A DNA stretch of 36,056 nucleotides. Source: a virus. Made by a program: the position numbers and the translations under genes. The notes beneath the pieces were generated by a model, which made no database searches, was not told where the DNA came from, and saw nothing but the letters and a program-made list of their open reading frames with translations. The stretch's first letter is position 1. Each line of letters opens with the position of its first letter. The stretch is taken from positions 1-36,056 of the IMG/VR virus record IMGVR_UViG_3300046001_006943. One strand, given 5' to 3'. This document shows, one piece after another, positions 1 through 36,056 of this stretch.

Positions 1-127
1 AGCGGTTTTGCGAGATTTTCGGCTCTAGGTTTAATTCAATAATTTGTTTGTACTTGTTATTTTCTGTCATCAACCGAAACATCAGGATTTATCTTGCCGA
101 AAATCCTCGCAAAGCCACGATACGTTA
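1..127 (-). repeat. attC-like imperfect hairpin element A
   Basis: Read on the minus strand, a TAACG box (123-127) directly follows the stop codon of the 128-436 gene. It opens a stem whose 5' arm (96-118) pairs with a 3' arm at 2-23 across a loop of about 70 bases. The arms differ by one T.G wobble, one C.A mismatch and one extra unpaired G in the 5' arm. The loop shares blocks with element B (TAAATCCTGATG, and AATAACAA followed by ACAAACA). The 3' end is cut by the window edge, so the expected GTTAT-type box is not fully visible. No reading frame explains it. The form (terminal TAAC box, long imperfect stem, extra base on the 5' arm, position right after a gene) matches integron attC sites; the identification is inference. 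Confidence 0.6.
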
Positions 128-436
128 TCACTCAGCTTCGGTATGAACGGCAAAAGTGACTTCTTTACCGTGAATATATAAATTGCCTTTATTTTCGCAT
201 TTTCCTCTACCGCTTTTTGATTTATAATAATCGCAAATTGATTTCTTACATTCATTTTTTTCTATACAATCTACGTGATGCATACACCATACAAATTCAG
301 AAGTACCATTATCTGGTATTGCTTCAATAAGAGTTACTTTTTTTAATCCCTCATCTTGTGCATCTTCAATTCTCGTCTGTAAATCATAGCAAGTTGTATC
401 ATCAATACTTTTAAAATATAATTTTTCTGTTTTCAT
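128..436 (-). CDS. Small cysteine-rich protein, probable zinc-binding, unknown function
   Basis: The product is 102 residues. Its second half carries a cluster of Cys and His residues (WCMHH, then C57, C63, C68 and C80 roughly), ending in a LYIHGKEVTF stretch, which suggests a structural zinc site. I do not know a biochemical role. It is the second gene of a two-gene unit with the small membrane protein at 452-628. The unit is bounded by hairpin element C upstream and element A downstream, so it looks like one cassette. The stop codon abuts the TAACG box of element A. Small zinc-ribbon proteins of this general look are common in Bacteroidota phages, but that is family impression only. Confidence 0.7.
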   Translation of the reverse strand: MKTEKLYFKSIDDTTCYDLQTRIEDAQDEGLKKVTLIEAIPDNGTSEFVWCMHHVDCIEKNECKKSICDYYKSKSGRGKCENKGNLYIHGKEVTFAVHTEAE

Positions 437-451
437 TTTTAAATATTTAAT

Positions 452-628
452 TTATTTTGTTAAAAGCCGAAGTCCGAAAAGTAATAGTCCAACTAAAGCC
501 AAAATAATAACCAATGATAATATGAAATACCAACCAGCTTGATAAATATTATAAGCAAAACAGCATATAATCATTATTGCGAAAAGTAATACAATTAAGT
601 AACCGATAATTTTTTTAAATTTTTTCAT
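452..628 (-). CDS. Small two-span membrane protein
   Basis: A 58-residue frame starting MKKFKKIIGYLIVLLF. It has a basic N-terminus and two hydrophobic segments (about residues 7-28 and 33-53) separated by a short AYNIYQAGW linker. It starts about 30 bases after the GTTAT-type end of element C and ends 16 bases before the next gene, so it is the first gene of the cassette bounded by elements C and A. Function is unknown. Candidate roles for such phage proteins are superinfection exclusion or membrane modulation, which is inference only. Confidence 0.6.
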   Translation of the reverse strand: MKKFKKIIGYLIVLLFAIMIICCFAYNIYQAGWYFILSLVIILALVGLLLFGLRLLTK

Positions 629-647
629 TTGTGTTGTAGAATAAAAA

Positions 648-788
648 GCCGAAGTGATAACAGTGGCTATATTTCAGCGTTTTATCAGGCTTTGTGAATA
701 TTTGTTTTGTACTCTTAATTTTTAATCAACTCGGACAAATGGTTTTGTACCTTACCACGCCGAAATTATAGCCACGAACCGTTACGCG
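648..788 (-). repeat. attC-like imperfect hairpin element C
   Basis: On the minus strand, four bases after the small-terminase stop, a TAACG box (780-784) is followed by the arm GTGGCTATAATTTCGGCGT (757-775). It pairs with 663-680 across about 76 bases. The arms match except for one G.T wobble and one extra A in the 5' arm. The element closes with TGTTAT (657-662). No plausible gene lies inside. The sequence of the stem is quite different from elements A and B although pairing is kept, which points to selection on structure rather than simple sequence copying. Confidence 0.65.
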
Positions 789-1232
789 TCAATTCGCTTT
801 TGATTGCATTAATTCAGCAAATAGCGAAATTTGATTTGGATCACTTGTTTCCTTCAGGTCTTTTTCAGATTTTGGATCAAGGCCAAAAAGCTTGAAGCAT
901 TTCATCAAAGTATCTTCGGCGTTGTTTTTTAAAGTCAGTTCCACAGATATGTTTTGCGCACCGGTTTTATAGGTTTGAATATAACCTTCGCCGTAGCTTC
1001 TTTTATTTTTAATTTTAATTGATCTAATAGAAAATTCATATTGTGCAGCAGCTTCAGAATAGATTTCTAATCCTGGTAAATAAATTTCTTTCAAGCGGTC
1101 CAACTTTGCCAAAAGATTTCCCATTGACATATAATATTTTTTTGCTTCATCAGTTAAATAAACTGGTGGCTTTGGCGCTTTCAATAAAGTGTCTTTGCCT
1201 TTATTGATACTAACAACATTCATTTTTTCCAT
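789..1232 (-). CDS. terS: Terminase small subunit, P27 family
   Basis: The 147-residue product has the usual P27 layout: a basic start (NKGKDTLLKAPKPPVYLTDEAKKYY), a helical middle, and a C-terminal FGLDPKSEKDL stretch typical of P27-family small terminases (phage_terminase_4). It would bind the packaging site and recruit the large subunit. It lies downstream of an HNH endonuclease, a pairing known in HK97-like cos phages. The large terminase is not adjacent: it lies at the other end of the window, and across the joined ends the accessory cassette region separates the two. A second Met at codon 4 is an alternative start. Confidence 0.85.
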   Translation of the reverse strand: MEKMNVVSINKGKDTLLKAPKPPVYLTDEAKKYYMSMGNLLAKLDRLKEIYLPGLEIYSEAAAQYEFSIRSIKIKNKRSYGEGYIQTYKTGAQNISVELTLKNNAEDTLMKCFKLFGLDPKSEKDLKETSDPNQISLFAELMQSKAN

Positions 1233-8476: not shown

Positions 8477-9706
8477 TCACTTCACACAATAAAACATACT
8501 TATAATTTCAAATAAGGCATTATCCCGGATAACTTCGGGATATTTGTCTTTATAGTAATTATCAACATCATCACGTTCGTGGCCCATTAGTTCACGGATC
8601 ACATCAGGTTCGATCATTAAACCCTTCGCAATGTTTGCAAAGGTATGTCGCGCCACTTTTACACCCATGTAACCACCATCAGGAAGCACTTCAATTTCGT
8701 GTTTTTGCTGCACATAAATCAAACCGCGCTGGTAAGTACGCCTAAAGTTTTCGTATGATTCGCGATCCTTTTCCCACAGAAAAACCCATTCGCCAGGTGT
8801 TTCATATTTCTTCAATAAAATCAAAGCTTTGGGATGAATTTTCAAATCAATTCGGGTGCCAGTATTGGTTTTAGTCCGTTCAAAAATCACACGGCCACGG
8901 CGAATCTGTTTATTTCTTAAATAGTATAAATCAACCAAATCACAGCCACCAAAGTAGAATTGCAATAAAAATAAATCCACATACTTTTGCTTTGCGCTTT
9001 TCAGGTCCAAGTGTTCCAGCTGCCAAATCAAATCTTTATTCAGGTACTTCTTTTTATTATTAAAAGAACGTTGTTTCAATCCATCAAAAACACCAGCGAA
9101 CGGCATTTTATTTTCCAAGCGATGCACCGCGATTCCTTTATTATAAATAGAACGTAATGTTCGAAGGTATAGATGGACCGTGCTTTTAGAATTTCCAATT
9201 CCGGTTTGATAATTCCTGAAACGCGTCAAAACATCATAATCAAGATCAGCCAAAGCCACATTTTGACCAAAAATCCCAAATTGCGAAATTACATTTTCAT
9301 ACACACGGCTGTTTCCAATCTGTTTATTTTGCGCCTGAAGTTCATTTGCTTTGCCAAGTTGCGCGGCGATAACCTTCATATCAGCAATTAATTTTGCGGC
9401 GAAAGCCAAGAACATCACTTTATCATTATCATCAGCAAAAAGCACCAGGAAAGCTTTTTCAACATCCGTTTCACCACTTAAAACCAATTGGCGCGCACGC
9501 AATTTAAGATTCATAATCATTGGTGCCAAAAAATCAAAATCAGGATGTTTTTCAGAAATCATTTTTGCATCCTTCAGAAAATGGTTTTCTTTGCAAAAAC
9601 AAATGTGCTTTGATTTCCGTTTGTTTTGGTGACTAATTTCAATCACTAACGGAAACCCTTCGGCAGTTTCTTTTCGCGATGCAATATGCTTGATTTCAAT
9701 TTTCAT
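8477..9706 (-). CDS. int: Tyrosine integrase, Bacteroidota phage type
   Basis: 409 residues with an arm-binding N-terminus (1-60), a SAM-like core-binding domain (about 130-205, LADLDYDVLTRFRNYQTGIG) and a catalytic domain. Visible catalytic positions: K279 in FERTKT, K350 and R353 in KVARHTF (His of HxxR replaced by Lys), H376 in LMGH and Y385 in VDNYY. The first catalytic Arg is not present: the usual GmRxxEL reads GGCDLVDL. It lies 114 bases from the tRNA-Arg half-gene, with repeats on each side, so it is the integrase of this phage. Confidence 0.9.
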   Translation of the reverse strand: MKIEIKHIASRKETAEGFPLVIEISHQNKRKSKHICFCKENHFLKDAKMISEKHPDFDFLAPMIMNLKLRARQLVLSGETDVEKAFLVLFADDNDKVMFLAFAAKLIADMKVIAAQLGKANELQAQNKQIGNSRVYENVISQFGIFGQNVALADLDYDVLTRFRNYQTGIGNSKSTVHLYLRTLRSIYNKGIAVHRLENKMPFAGVFDGLKQRSFNNKKKYLNKDLIWQLEHLDLKSAKQKYVDLFLLQFYFGGCDLVDLYYLRNKQIRRGRVIFERTKTNTGTRIDLKIHPKALILLKKYETPGEWVFLWEKDRESYENFRRTYQRGLIYVQQKHEIEVLPDGGYMGVKVARHTFANIAKGLMIEPDVIRELMGHERDDVDNYYKDKYPEVIRDNALFEIISMFYCVK

Positions 9707-32570: not shown

Positions 32571-32771
32571 TCATTTTGGTGATTTTGTTGATAAAAAGCT
32601 GTCGATGATTCTGTTTATAGAAAAATGTGTCACTTTGAATTCAGCAGCGATTTCCGGTATTGAATTGTTTTTCGAGAATCGCCAGCGGTGCAGGATTTCA
32701 GCTTTTGTTTCTTTGGAAAGTGGCGGTTGGACATATTTTTTGAACGGATTTTTTTTATAGTGTAATTGCAT
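32571..32771 (-). CDS. Small HTH protein coupled to the second recombinase
   Basis: 66 residues. SKETKAEILHRWRFSKNNSI and PEIAAEFKVTHFSINRIID form a helix-turn-helix of resolvase/transposase type. It overlaps the recombinase 3' end by 17 bases, so the two are co-translated. It may be a directionality or accessory factor for the recombinase; that is inference. Confidence 0.62.
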   Translation of the reverse strand: MQLHYKKNPFKKYVQPPLSKETKAEILHRWRFSKNNSIPEIAAEFKVTHFSINRIIDSFLSTKSPK

Positions 32772-33585
32772 TGAATGGTGAATTTATTTTACTGATTAAA
32801 TTGTGTGAAATATGCGTGTATAAAAGTGTGGTTTTGACGTTTGAATGTCCAGCGAGTTTTTGAATAAGGTTTATATCAATGCCGTTTTCGACCATATGTG
32901 TGAAGCAATTGTGGCGCATTAAATGCGTGTACACTCTTTTGTTGATTCCAGCCTTTTCAGCTAATTGTTTCATCACCTGACCAATTGATGTTGCTGAATA
33001 TTGTTCTGAAAATTGTCCTGAAAGGATGAAATTTCGGGTTTGATAGGTCCTGAAATAGCGTTCTAATAACGGAATCAAAGCTTCAGGAAGCATCACTTGT
33101 CGGTCTTTATTTCCTTTTCCGGCTATGATATTGATAATCATTCGGGATCTATCGATATTGGACCACTTCAGGTTTATCAATTCGGAAACGCGCATTCCGG
33201 TTGCATAAAGTAATGCCAGGATAACTTTGTGTTTTAAATTGTGGCACGCATCGAACATTTGTTGCACTTCTTGTTGTGAAAGGACAATTGGCAGTTTCTT
33301 TTCGCTTTTTGGATATGGTATTTTTGCAATCTTTAATGGCATTCCTATGGTAATTTTATAAAACGAATTCAACGCACACAAACGGTGTTTCCTGGTGTTG
33401 ATGGTTTGCGCTTCCAACAGCCAAAGTTTTATCTTTTCGTTGTCGATTGCCTTTGGTTCCAATTCATTTTTGAAGTGTTTCAAGAACGTTAAAACTTGTG
33501 ATGTGTAGTTTTTACGCGTTGCTTCAGAATTATAAACTAATTGAATATCAATCGAATATTTAGAGTGCCATTTTAGAATGTCCAT
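32755..33585 (-). CDS. Second tyrosine recombinase, XerC/IntI-like
   Basis: 276 residues, short. An N-terminal core-binding domain (about 20-80, SEATRKNYTSQVLTFLKHFK) precedes a catalytic domain with all six residues: R132 in YATGMRVSEL, K157 in AGKGNKDR, H221 and R224 in THLMRH, H247 in LAGHSN, Y256 in LLYTHIS. The blocks KKLPIVLSQQEVQQMF and DRQVMLPEALIPLLER are like integron integrases, but the extra IntI-specific insert between patches is not present. It lies next to the inverted-repeat-flanked gene at 33651-33914. Confidence 0.88.
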   Translation of the reverse strand: MDILKWHSKYSIDIQLVYNSEATRKNYTSQVLTFLKHFKNELEPKAIDNEKIKLWLLEAQTINTRKHRLCALNSFYKITIGMPLKIAKIPYPKSEKKLPIVLSQQEVQQMFDACHNLKHKVILALLYATGMRVSELINLKWSNIDRSRMIINIIAGKGNKDRQVMLPEALIPLLERYFRTYQTRNFILSGQFSEQYSATSIGQVMKQLAEKAGINKRVYTHLMRHNCFTHMVENGIDINLIQKLAGHSNVKTTLLYTHISHNLISKINSPFNAITL

Positions 33586-33636
33586 AGTGTGAGGTGTTGA
33601 GTTTGTTGGTGTGGGTTGTGAGTTTGTACATATGTA

Positions 33637-33651
33637 TGTTATGGTTAATGC
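33637..33651 (+). repeat. Inverted-repeat copy next to the recombinase start (attI-like)
   Basis: TGTTATGGTTAATGC on the plus strand, 51 bases upstream of the recombinase ATG, next to a perfect palindrome TACATATGTA (33627-33636). It matches 14 of 15 bases of TGTTATGGTTAGTGC on the opposite strand at 33936-33950. Both copies begin with GTTA, the core of integron recombination sites. Confidence 0.62.
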
Positions 33652-33914
33652 TACGATTCGTATAAAGATTGAAATTTTGTCAACTCATTTTCGTAATGTT
33701 CTAAAATAGATTTACAAGAATAAATTTTTGCGTTTAATTTCCCTTTTAAATAATTTACAGCATCTTCCTTATTTAAAAAACTTTTCACATAATTAGTGTC
33801 TAAAGAATTTCGTCTATTATTCATTGTCCAATATGAATTATCAGTAATTCTTGAACATTCAACTTCTATTATTTTAAGGCTTAAATTTGTGTAAACTTGA
33901 TAAATTTTTGTCAT
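33651..33914 (-). CDS. Cassette gene bracketed by inverted repeats, unknown
   Basis: 87 residues (MTKIYQVYTNLSLKIIEVEC, then VKSFLNKEDAVNYLKGKLNA and a final helix). No family recognised. Its start and stop lie just inside the 15-base inverted repeats at 33637-33651 and 33936-33950, next to the second recombinase. The composition is more AT-rich than the recombinase. Candidate roles include an antidefence or antitoxin-type protein, but nothing in the sequence shows this. Confidence 0.65.
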   Translation of the reverse strand: MTKIYQVYTNLSLKIIEVECSRITDNSYWTMNNRRNSLDTNYVKSFLNKEDAVNYLKGKLNAKIYSCKSILEHYENELTKFQSLYES

Positions 33915-33935
33915 TGTAATTTAGTTTTATGAACC

Positions 33936-34074
33936 GCACTAACCATAACACGTGTTTGGCAAGATTCAAGGATTAGTTATTAATTTAAAGTTCTGTTTGT
34001 GTTTGTTATTATCAGCCTTGACTCGAAGCATCAGGATTTACTTTCCTTGAACCTCGCCAAGCACGGGAACGTTA
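33936..34074 (-). repeat. attC-like imperfect hairpin element B
   Basis: On the minus strand a TAACG box (34070-34074, 23 bases after the methyltransferase stop) leads into the arm CGTGCTTGGCGAGGTTCAAGG (34045-34065 in plus numbering; written here with its final base). It pairs with 33951-33971 over 21 positions with two G.T wobbles and one C.A mismatch. The loop shares TAAATCCTGATG with element A. It ends in TGTTATGGTTAGTGC (33936-33950), one of the inverted repeats around the next gene. Confidence 0.65.
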
Positions 34075-34097
34075 GCGGATATAGTTCCGTTCATCAT

Positions 34098-34730
34098 TCA
34101 TAAGAACATTTGCAACTGTGCTACGTGATTATTTATGCGCTCCATAGCTTTGTCGTAATACTCTTTATCAAGTTCGCACGCTACAAGGTCATATCCGTAA
34201 TCGTGGCAGGCTATTGCAATGCTTCCGCTACCTAAGTGCGTATCTAGGATTTTATCGCCTTGTTTGGCGTATTTGTCAAGTAGCCATTTGTATAATTTAT
34301 AAGGTTTTTCTGTTGGGTGAAAAGTATTTTGTGAAATTAAAGATGCTCTATTTAATTCAAACTGCCTTGTAACTGTTTCAAATGAAGTCCAAGCCATTTC
34401 GCCATCACTCATTGTTAAATCTCTTTGTCCTTTATACCAAAAAATCCAAGCCTTAGTAGGTTTTAAATGTTCTGTAAAATAATTTCCACCCCACACAATT
34501 TGATTTTTAGATACTCTTTGTAACTCCATAAAGTATTCTTTTGAAGGTATTTTGTTATCCCAGTTCTTTTGTGTATGTTCTTTTCTATTATGTTTAGGAT
34601 TTTTATTAATACTTTTCTTTTGTCCGTCAATACCAATCCCATAAGGCGGGTCAACTATTGCAAGTTCGAAATATTTATCAGGATATCTAGCCATTAGTGC
34701 CATATTACATTCGTTTGTTATTGTTATCAT
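34098..34730 (-). CDS. DNA methyltransferase, N6-adenine/N4-cytosine type
   Basis: 210 residues. Motif IV DPPYGIGIDG (27-36) comes before HPTEKP (138-143) and motif I LDTHLGSGSIA (about 162-172), the beta-class order. DPPY favours adenine-N6. It is short, as phage orphan methylases often are, with no restriction gene alongside; it may protect DNA from host enzymes. Overlaps the upstream zinc-ribbon gene by four bases. Followed by element B, so part of a cassette. Confidence 0.85.
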   Translation of the reverse strand: MITITNECNMALMARYPDKYFELAIVDPPYGIGIDGQKKSINKNPKHNRKEHTQKNWDNKIPSKEYFMELQRVSKNQIVWGGNYFTEHLKPTKAWIFWYKGQRDLTMSDGEMAWTSFETVTRQFELNRASLISQNTFHPTEKPYKLYKWLLDKYAKQGDKILDTHLGSGSIAIACHDYGYDLVACELDKEYYDKAMERINNHVAQLQMFL

Positions 34731-34909
34731 AATTCAATTATTTCAAAACAATCATCACAAACAGTATGAGAATAACTACCATCACTATTACAATAATTTG
34801 TTTTATATTCGTGTTTACATTCATTAACTTTTTCGTTAGTAGAGCCACTACATCCGCTAACACTCGCTACAAGCAATGGCTCTTTTATTTTATTATCGTT
34901 TTCCATCAT
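34727..34909 (-). CDS. Small zinc-ribbon-like protein
   Basis: 60 residues. CKHEYKTNYCNSDGS and VCDDCFEIIEL give a CxH...C...CxxC pattern that suggests one zinc site. Coupled by ATGA overlap to the methyltransferase, so a partner or regulator of it is possible. Starts 34 bases after element D. Confidence 0.6.
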   Translation of the reverse strand: MMENDNKIKEPLLVASVSGCSGSTNEKVNECKHEYKTNYCNSDGSYSHTVCDDCFEIIEL

Positions 34910-34942
34910 ATTTATTTTTTAATTAGAAATTTAGTTTTTCAA

Positions 34943-34971
34943 TCCCGCCACTGCGTGTAGCTTGAACGTTA
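34943..34971 (-). repeat. Half-length TAACG element D
   Basis: On the minus strand TAACG (34967-34971), ten bases after the PAPS-reductase-like stop, is followed by TTCAAGCTACACGCAGTGGC and GGG. It shares the TAACGT start and the GGCGGGA end with element E. No 3' arm like those of A-C can be found, so it may be a truncated or different attC-like site. Confidence 0.45.
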
Positions 34972-34981
34972 CAGGAAATGA

Positions 34982-35857
34982 TTAGAAACTGCATACACAA
35001 TTAAAATCATCTTCCGTTTCTAATTCCATTTCAATAGTTCTTGGTAATTCTGATAATTTTACTAAATCAGCAATTGATTTATGACCACGAAATGAAACGC
35101 TATTATATTTTTGTTCTTCTTTTTCAAACCATTCAATAAATCTTGTACCGTGTAATATGTTTTCAATTAAATTATTGTCTGATTTTTTCCAGCATAATTC
35201 ACAGTTACCATATTTACCGTGCATTTCTAATTTAAACGGTTGTTTTTTCCAATATTTATTTAAGTCTAATTGCGATATTGGGGTATAAAAATCAGTCAAT
35301 AAAGGAAATATCTTCTGCTTTTGCTCTTTGATTTCAGCCAACGAGATTCGCTTTGGCATATCTTCTTTTCTAAATCCTATTGCGATTTTATATTTATTAA
35401 CTCCAAAAATATCATCACATAGTTTTTTAGCAGGAAGCGTTTTTAAATTTTCAGAACAATAAGGTGCATCTTGGTTTGGTAATCCCTCAAATATTCCTTT
35501 GTTTTTATGTTCAATCATTTTAGAAAATGGCTTTGCAGTCATATTCATATTTTCCCAATCAACAATTTTATATTTAACTCCAGTTCCTAAATCATTTGAA
35601 TAAACGCCTTCAATTTTTACTATTGGCATTTCCCAATACTTTTCTATATTTTTAAGAAAATCAATTGTTTCAGGTCTTTCCATTCCTGTATTACAAAAAA
35701 CAAAAACCTTTTCATAATTAGCATATTTTTCATTCGTTTGAATGTGTCTTGCCATCATTGCGGAACTTCTACCACCCGAAACAGTTACCATTAACGACCC
35801 ATCACTTCCTGTAACAGCGGTTTTGAGCAAGCGGGTATCAGTTTTTAATTCAGTCAT
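34982..35857 (-). CDS. PAPS reductase/adenine-nucleotide alpha-hydrolase-like protein
   Basis: 291 residues. The PP-loop VTVSGGRSSAMM (S27-S32) binds ATP in the family. Later cysteine blocks (APYCSENLKTLPAKKL, YGNCELCWKKSDN) recall phage PAPS reductase-family proteins and DndC-like enzymes. The family activates by adenylation; phage members are suspected in DNA or tRNA modification rather than sulfate assimilation. No dndA/B/D/E partners are seen. Followed by half-element D and preceded by half-element E. Confidence 0.75.
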   Translation of the reverse strand: MTELKTDTRLLKTAVTGSDGSLMVTVSGGRSSAMMARHIQTNEKYANYEKVFVFCNTGMERPETIDFLKNIEKYWEMPIVKIEGVYSNDLGTGVKYKIVDWENMNMTAKPFSKMIEHKNKGIFEGLPNQDAPYCSENLKTLPAKKLCDDIFGVNKYKIAIGFRKEDMPKRISLAEIKEQKQKIFPLLTDFYTPISQLDLNKYWKKQPFKLEMHGKYGNCELCWKKSDNNLIENILHGTRFIEWFEKEEQKYNSVSFRGHKSIADLVKLSELPRTIEMELETEDDFNCVCSF

Positions 35858-35905
35858 TTGGTGTGTTTTTATTATTAGTAATTAATTCAATTATTCGGTT
35901 TTATT

Positions 35906-35935
35906 TTCCCGCCTGCACAAAGCCGCAGGACGTTA
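35906..35935 (-). repeat. Half-length TAACG element E
   Basis: On the minus strand TAACG (35931-35935) is followed by the small hairpin CCTGC-GGCTTTGT-GCAGG (35912-35929), then GCGGGA. The 5' part lines up with the 5' arm of element A (TAACGT, then GGCTTTG), but the matching 3' arm and GTTAT end are missing. It lies nine bases after the partial gene at the right edge. Confidence 0.5.
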
Positions 35936-35944
35936 AGAGCAAGT

Positions 35945-36056
35945 TTAGAGCAACTGTACCCAACCGAGTTCTATCTGCTTTGAAACCTTATGATTATTCC
36001 AATCAATTGCATATCCTAAATCTCTTGCTAAATCTGTAAACGAGCTTGGAAGCATA
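35945..36056 (-). CDS. Partial gene at the right edge, unknown
   Basis: At least 36 residues from the first visible ATG at 36055 (LPSSFTDLARDLGYAIDWNN and KVSKQIELGWVQLL). The real start may lie beyond the edge. Too short to assign. If the ends join, it would follow element A, so it may be the next cassette gene. Confidence 0.5.
   Translation of the reverse strand, partial: MLPSSFTDLARDLGYAIDWNNHKVSKQIELGWVQLL

Follow-up and report, generated by a model that had tools for sequence, protein, structure and literature searches.

The viral record IMGVR_UViG_3300046001_006943 (IMG/VR), analysed here over its full 36,056 nucleotides (the window), raises the question whether a phage can carry a cassette array resembling an integron, the textbook gene-capture system defined by IntI, that is not based on this enzyme. 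In the initial annotation, the locus had been taken for an array of integron type, either diverged or independent, with a recombinase other than IntI. The reshuffled arrays of related phages, together with the absence of an Rfam match, bear this out. Very probably the locus is a phage-borne, integron-like cassette platform in which the moving unit consists of one hairpin site and the gene downstream of it, and viruses of Bacteroidota appear to run such a gene-swapping platform without the known integron enzyme.

Read along the minus strand, the array starts behind the terminase small subunit gene (789-1232) with hairpin C, two small genes, and hairpin A at the contig end. Past the contig start it continues with a short open frame, hairpin E, a PAPS-reductase-like gene, hairpin D, a 60-aa gene plus a DNA methylase gene, hairpin B, an 87-aa gene, and a 276-aa tyrosine recombinase, with the terminase large subunit further on (Table 1). 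The contig ends share no exact terminal repeat, and the unit that would span the junction has two ends mismatched by the end rule described below, so closure of the window into a circle is not to be assumed. The contig break falls exactly at the 3' end of hairpin A (window positions 1 and 36056), and the contig may lack sequence, perhaps entire cassettes, at this junction, which would be expected for an array that varies in the population.

Table 1. Parts of the cassette array in the window, in array order.
Feature	Position	Strand	Evidence
Left border, terminase small subunit gene ending ..TTGACGCG before TAACG	785..1232	-	homology with L003 and L027 ends exactly at TAAC(G)
Hairpin site C (TAACG...GTTA), first after terminase small subunit gene	658..784	-	duplex -32 kcal/mol; covariance model 77 bits, in the model's training set
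Gene unit GTTA...TAAC, 58-aa and 102-aa genes	124..661	-	flanked by sites C and A; ends GTTATCACT / reverse complement of GTTATCACT complementary
Hairpin site A, 3' end cut by contig end	1..127	-	covariance model 68.9 bits, 3' cut off, outside the training set; 72% identity with B
Hairpin site E, start codon of PAPS-reductase-like gene in loop	35812..35935	-	duplex -30.7; covariance model 102 bits
Gene unit, 848 nt, PAPS-reductase-like gene 34982-35857	34968..35815	-	92% identity with L008 over 848/848 nt; Pfam PF01507
Hairpin site D, start codon of 60-aa gene in loop	34858..34971	-	duplex -24.9; covariance model 75 bits
Gene unit, 60-aa gene and N6/N4 DNA methylase (34098-34730)	34071..34861	-	ends complementary 9/9; PF01555
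Hairpin site B	33946..34074	-	duplex -35; covariance model 92 bits
Last gene unit, 87-aa gene 33651-33914, stops at attI-like site	33638..33949	-	ends complementary 9/9
Putative attI-like site, TAAC followed by ATACATATGTACAAAC	33620..33641	-	relatives with TAAC followed by TACTATATGTATTT and variants at the same position
Short tyrosine recombinase, 276 aa, without IntI insert	32755..33585	-	PF00589, E 7e-40; TIGR02249 164 bits vs cut-off 265; own clade 100/99

The five gene ends for which a following TAACG box had been described all carry it on the minus strand (123-127, 780-784, 34070-34074, 34967-34971, and 35931-35935). As a word TAACG is not enriched in the window (54 matches vs 66.8 expected), and the weight of the boxes is in their position and pairing, not in their frequency. 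Three of them had been proposed to open long hairpins. A, B, and C do fold, but the number has to be raised to five: D and E are complete too, because their 3' arms and GTTA fall within the first codons of the next gene, whose start codon lies in the loop. The extents first given for B and C were somewhat too long and are listed in Table 1 from TAAC to GTTA, and A lacks the final GTTA at the contig end. All five hairpins (114-129 nt, A being cut) follow the plan TAACG...TGTTA, and their own arms beat every re-pairing among them (mean -31 vs -15 kcal/mol; permutation p 0.008, the minimum for n=5). A and B are similar in sequence over 112 nt, and the DNA fold z-scores are weak for some single sites.

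Hairpins of the same plan lie upstream of the recombinase in most IMG/VR relatives, mostly with lengths of 123-131 nt and in a minority of 70-95 nt. A custom covariance model (R1), a check that the initial annotation had proposed, was built from 49 sites and found out-of-sample matches in related phages, including about 18 sites in one locus (L277), every one of them on the array strand and upstream of the recombinase. The covariation score of the model alignment (0.61 vs 0.17) is partly circular because its sites had been picked by pairing, and an arm-swap test replaces it as evidence. In loci outside the model, segments found by the end rule alone pair better with their own arms than with swapped ones (-28.2 vs -13.1 kcal/mol, p<1e-4, n=12), and the same holds for a bacterial set (-28.8 vs -14.9 kcal/mol, p<1e-4, n=72). 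Judged by this comparison, the stem is kept by pairing rather than by sequence. A G.T pair occupies a fixed place in the inner stem of 44 of the 49 sites and makes the two strands of a site unequal. At position 11 of the unit ends, a G likewise faces a T, and both features are possibly strand-choice marks that resemble the extrahelical bases of attC. A blastn search with site B gave no match among named phages. The matches listed by a viral scan with TAACG..GTGGCGGG are mostly chance by estimate and were left out of the evidence.

The genes between the hairpins lie in units with characteristic ends. A unit typically opens with GTTA-n6-G-n3 and closes with the reverse complement, except that T instead of C stands opposite the G (...T-n6-TAAC); a one-base-shifted form (start TCG vs end CA) occurs in a minority of units. 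Complementarity between the two ends of the same unit reaches 6.1/8, compared with 2.7/8 for other end pairs (p<1e-4). Over 2 Mb of fetched loci the end rule finds 53 units on the array strand, one on the other strand, and three in block-shuffled sequence. Because the unit ends are mutually complementary, the hairpin stem would lengthen outwards in an excised circle, as with the R boxes of an integron cassette. The start codon lies within the upstream hairpin in 40 of 91 phage units. The cargo comprises many DNA methylases (C5, N6/N4, and Dam types), PAPS-reductase-like proteins, and many small proteins of no known function, a composition that suggests traffic in anti-restriction and host-interaction genes. 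One cassette inside the array of another phage (L019:3460-4440) carries a second tyrosine recombinase (326 aa, PF00589).

The interpretation as a mobile array had been made dependent on related phages not sharing the same genes in the same order between their hairpins. Near-identical relatives indeed differ in cassettes and order, with breakpoints exactly at the boxes, and the reshuffled loci L451 and L453 contradict a static arrangement. In these two, four blocks composed of a hairpin and its downstream gene (~99-100% identity) are ordered a,b,c,d and c,d,b,a, respectively, in a single orientation and with junctions at TAAC. The neighbour of block d is the attI-like site in L451 (GCATTACTGCTAAC joined to TATTATATG) and cassette b in L453 (GCATTACTGCTAAC joined to GTTCTGG). 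L450 shares 99.985% identity with L451, L454, and L456 over 6,856 nt from the TAAC of the attI-like site on, and the cassettes before this TAAC differ. L039 and L040 (99.8% identity over 3,997 nt) split just inside a TAACG-opened hairpin, of which TAACGTTTTG is shared, and the L039 cassette at this divergence point adjoins the attI-like site. The homology of the window scaffold with L003 or L027 ends at terS..TTGACGCGTAAC(G). On this comparative evidence, TAAC-bounded units change order and content between near-identical phages with breakpoints at TAAC. The block comparisons define the moving unit as a hairpin plus the downstream gene, exchanged at TAAC. Hence, the earlier statement that each accessory gene is closed by a TAACG element has to be abandoned, as the element leads the downstream gene instead. 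A hairpin travelling with its upstream gene, as in integrons, was considered for the phages and rejected on the basis of the blocks common to L451 and L453; it is also countered by L008 and L019, which have the left hairpins in common and not the right ones. Some units are common to different loci from end to end (848/848, 712/712, and 193/193 nt). Among them, the PAPS-reductase unit of the window and its L008 counterpart are flanked on both sides by unrelated hairpins, which implies that GTTA-side exchange or hairpin replacement also occurs and for which the simple model offers no explanation. Just before the array of L003 (834-894), an additional gene is flanked on both sides by the terminal part of the terminase small subunit gene, which suggests another route of gene gain at the border between terminase and array.

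No hairpin follows the unit that immediately precedes the recombinase. This unit closes with a TAAC to which TACTATATGTATTT or a near variant is attached, ~50-115 nt in front of the recombinase; the initial annotation had overlooked this site. Of 46 recombinase loci with sufficient flanking sequence, 35 show the motif (TAAC-nnn-YTATATG-type) upstream of the recombinase and 11 lack it, and recognisable units are absent in 13. Most matches of a scan with the attI pattern are due to chance, and a match was retained only if a unit or the recombinase adjoined it. Judged by comparison, the array ends at this conserved, putative attI-like site beside a dedicated tyrosine recombinase, and an attI adjacent to the integrase gene, as required of an integron, thus seems to have its counterpart here.

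Relatives of the recombinase were found on 22 IMG/VR contigs by sequence and on 52 by profile, relatives of the large terminase on many more, and dozens of phage contigs in IMG/VR show the same anatomy, with as many as ~18 hairpins. The predicted protein is a Xer-type enzyme whose best relatives in the PDB are XerA and a XerC-like protein. The extra insert of IntI has been described as essential to integron function (PMC8138268). Its absence from the phage enzyme, already noticed in the initial annotation, was verified against IntI4 of V. cholerae (2a3v), which has ~43 residues more between query positions 177 and 198. The enzyme scores below the cut-off of the IntI family (Table 1) and also below those of the XerC/XerD clade (170 bits of 329.6 for TIGR02225, 162 of 335 for TIGR02224). 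In a phylogenetic tree with some long branches and an arbitrary root, the phage enzymes form one clade (support 100/99, with two MAG contigs inside) apart from IntI (100/100) and XerC/D (100/100), and the bacterial array enzymes discussed below are placed outside all three. An AlphaFold model of the enzyme is mediocre (pLDDT 72, pTM 0.37). In L019, the N-terminal part of the array recombinase differs and the core is ~80% like the others.

Chromosomes of Flavobacteriaceae contain arrays that share the site model and the end rule with the phages. At E<=1e-4, 125 of 200 sampled genomes of this family have matches to the site model. Subsaximicrobium wynnwilliamsii has more than 50 model matches in arrays, gene units from ~330 nt to several kb, and borders of the form CAAC/GTTG or TAAC/GTTA that obey the same end rule. 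These large chromosomal arrays (genome G002; L365-L372, L378, L379) are distributed across numerous short contigs and include series of small cassettes that resemble each other; they have the look of a superintegron, with no IntI at the threshold used. An array of this class begins beside a 310-314-aa Xer-like, non-IntI recombinase in Muriicola (L229) and in genome G133 (L406), and this recombinase is a third enzyme besides the XerC- and XerD-like ones. The Muriicola enzyme scores 195 bits against IntI (cut-off 265), and no IntI was found in G133 at the threshold applied. Followed outward from the recombinase, the elements succeed each other as in an integron (recombinase, attI, gene-site, gene-site), yet the phage genes read towards the attI-like site, whereas the bacterial genes lie on the opposite strand and thus in integron order. 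Among 53 phage units with a clear gene, 49 have the site before the gene and one is on the other strand; of 105 clear units in the related bacterial arrays, 98 show the integron order and four the opposite one. The inverted gene order is what makes a start codon inside the upstream hairpin possible.

The topology alone would also be expected if a phage had captured an ordinary integron, with standard attC hairpins served by the IntI of the host and an unrelated recombinase in the neighbourhood. Integrons and CALINs do occur in phages (Qi et al., 2023, PMC9892861), where the sections of that paper drawn on here describe IntI or no integrase, not the present enzyme class. Moreover, 84 of 296 sampled genomes of the phylum encode IntI above the family cut-off. 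This is more than the cited integron papers suggest for Bacteroidetes; for Bacteroidetes proper, a single complete integron, that of Salinibacter ruber, is listed among complete genomes (IntegronFinder 2.0, PMC9024848). However, the strict attC consensus, from which the elements had been said to deviate, is matched by one (RYYYAAC) and two (GTTRRRY) of 53 sites. Six IntI loci of the same phylum (L417-L422) contain no R1 match, and the one among them with clear attC sites has sites of 60 nt with RYYYAAC/GTTRRRY. These six loci also speak against reading the bacterial arrays as ordinary IntI arrays. Dozens of phages have the array beside the non-IntI recombinase and the conserved attI-like site, and bacterial arrays of the same site class begin beside other non-IntI recombinases. 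A captured integron is therefore unlikely. The platform nevertheless shares much with integrons: single-gene cassettes pointing one way, imperfect hairpin sites with AAC/GTT ends whose structure is conserved over sequence, cassette-specific complementary ends, an attI-like site by a tyrosine recombinase, and cassettes that are gained, lost, and reordered via the sites, with change at the attI-proximal cassette. It differs in its recombinase, which lacks the IntI insert and belongs to a separate clade, in the core consensus, in the length of the phage sites with their fixed G.T position, and in the order of site and gene, the cassette being a gene followed by its site in the bacterial relatives only. 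Because the IntI feature, the consensus, and the gene-then-site order are all lacking, the phage array is not classed as an integron.

If the recombinase were a lysogeny integrase, the TAAC site would be attP and the genes ordinary morons beside it. This would fit a tyrosine recombinase that the phage itself encodes beside a conserved site, and also the temperate-type HTH gene nearby, but cassettes are shuffled with TAAC junctions at every site and not only near the recombinase. In addition, the window encodes a second tyrosine-recombinase-like protein of 409 aa far from the array (8477-9706, minus strand; PHROG phrog_1, integrase). This is the likelier lysogeny integrase, so the array recombinase probably does not have that role, and we regard the attP interpretation as very improbable. 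Scarcely credible is a third one, in which the hairpins act at the RNA level, as terminators or translation-control elements, and exchange occurs by homologous recombination in them: they are intergenic, fold well, and often contain the next start codon, but they match no known structured RNA (Rfam at a relaxed threshold gave weak chance matches only), complementarity is also seen between the two ends of a gene unit, outside the hairpin, stem sequences differ between sites, exchanged units keep unrelated hairpins on both sides, and the L451/L453 junctions lie at TAAC.

For the integron-like platform, a mechanism can be proposed in which the neighbouring recombinase, a candidate because of its position, would have a hairpin site in its folded, single-stranded form as substrate. 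It may excise circles of hairpin plus gene, in which an outer R-box-like stem, an asymmetric spacer of ~5 and 1 nt, an inner stem, and a loop would follow each other, and insert them at a TAAC, either that of the attI-like site or that of a further hairpin site. Since cassettes, recombinase, and terminase genes are co-directional, the phage operon can express the cassettes; it would transcribe the array, and in nearly half of the units the hairpin supplies the start codon. Phages would then own a complete cassette-shuffling platform including recombinase and attI-like site, and could rapidly exchange methylases and other host-interaction genes. On balance, we favour a wider view in which Bacteroidota harbour a second, non-IntI class of cassette platforms run by Xer-like recombinases without the IntI insert, with large chromosomal arrays and a phage-adapted form in which, owing to the inversion of the gene, the site comes first and often provides its start. 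If this is true, gene capture by folded sites arose, or persisted, outside the integron integrase family, and the combination of integron topology with a Xer-like enzyme that lacks the insert makes the origin of folded-site recombination directly testable. Flavobacteriaceae chromosomal sites of the same class would be missed by searches for IntI and perhaps also by those based on RYYYAAC/GTTRRRY.

A literature search found no paper on the present system; subscription literature and preprints were outside its scope, and this absence does not prove that the system is undescribed. The pdif modules of Acinetobacter plasmids resemble the phage array in that gene modules are swapped at Xer-type sites. 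Unlike the array, they use short double-stranded sites and the chromosomal XerC/D, and are not known to have a foldable hairpin or a recombinase of their own. Closer to the window is Polaribacter phage P12002L, also a flavobacterial phage with methylase cassettes and TAACG..TGTTA hairpins after genes. Its site is too different for model R1, which matched neither P12002L nor the Polaribacter phage Leef_1. Its array has been described as a CALIN with divergent attC directions and one site recombined by IntI1, the sections drawn on here reporting no recombinase (PMC9892861). In P12002L (L381, 29250-31330), the methylase genes are separated by TAACG..TGTTA hairpins in gene direction, that is, in the same inverted order as in the window, and this order may account for the reported divergence of attC directions.
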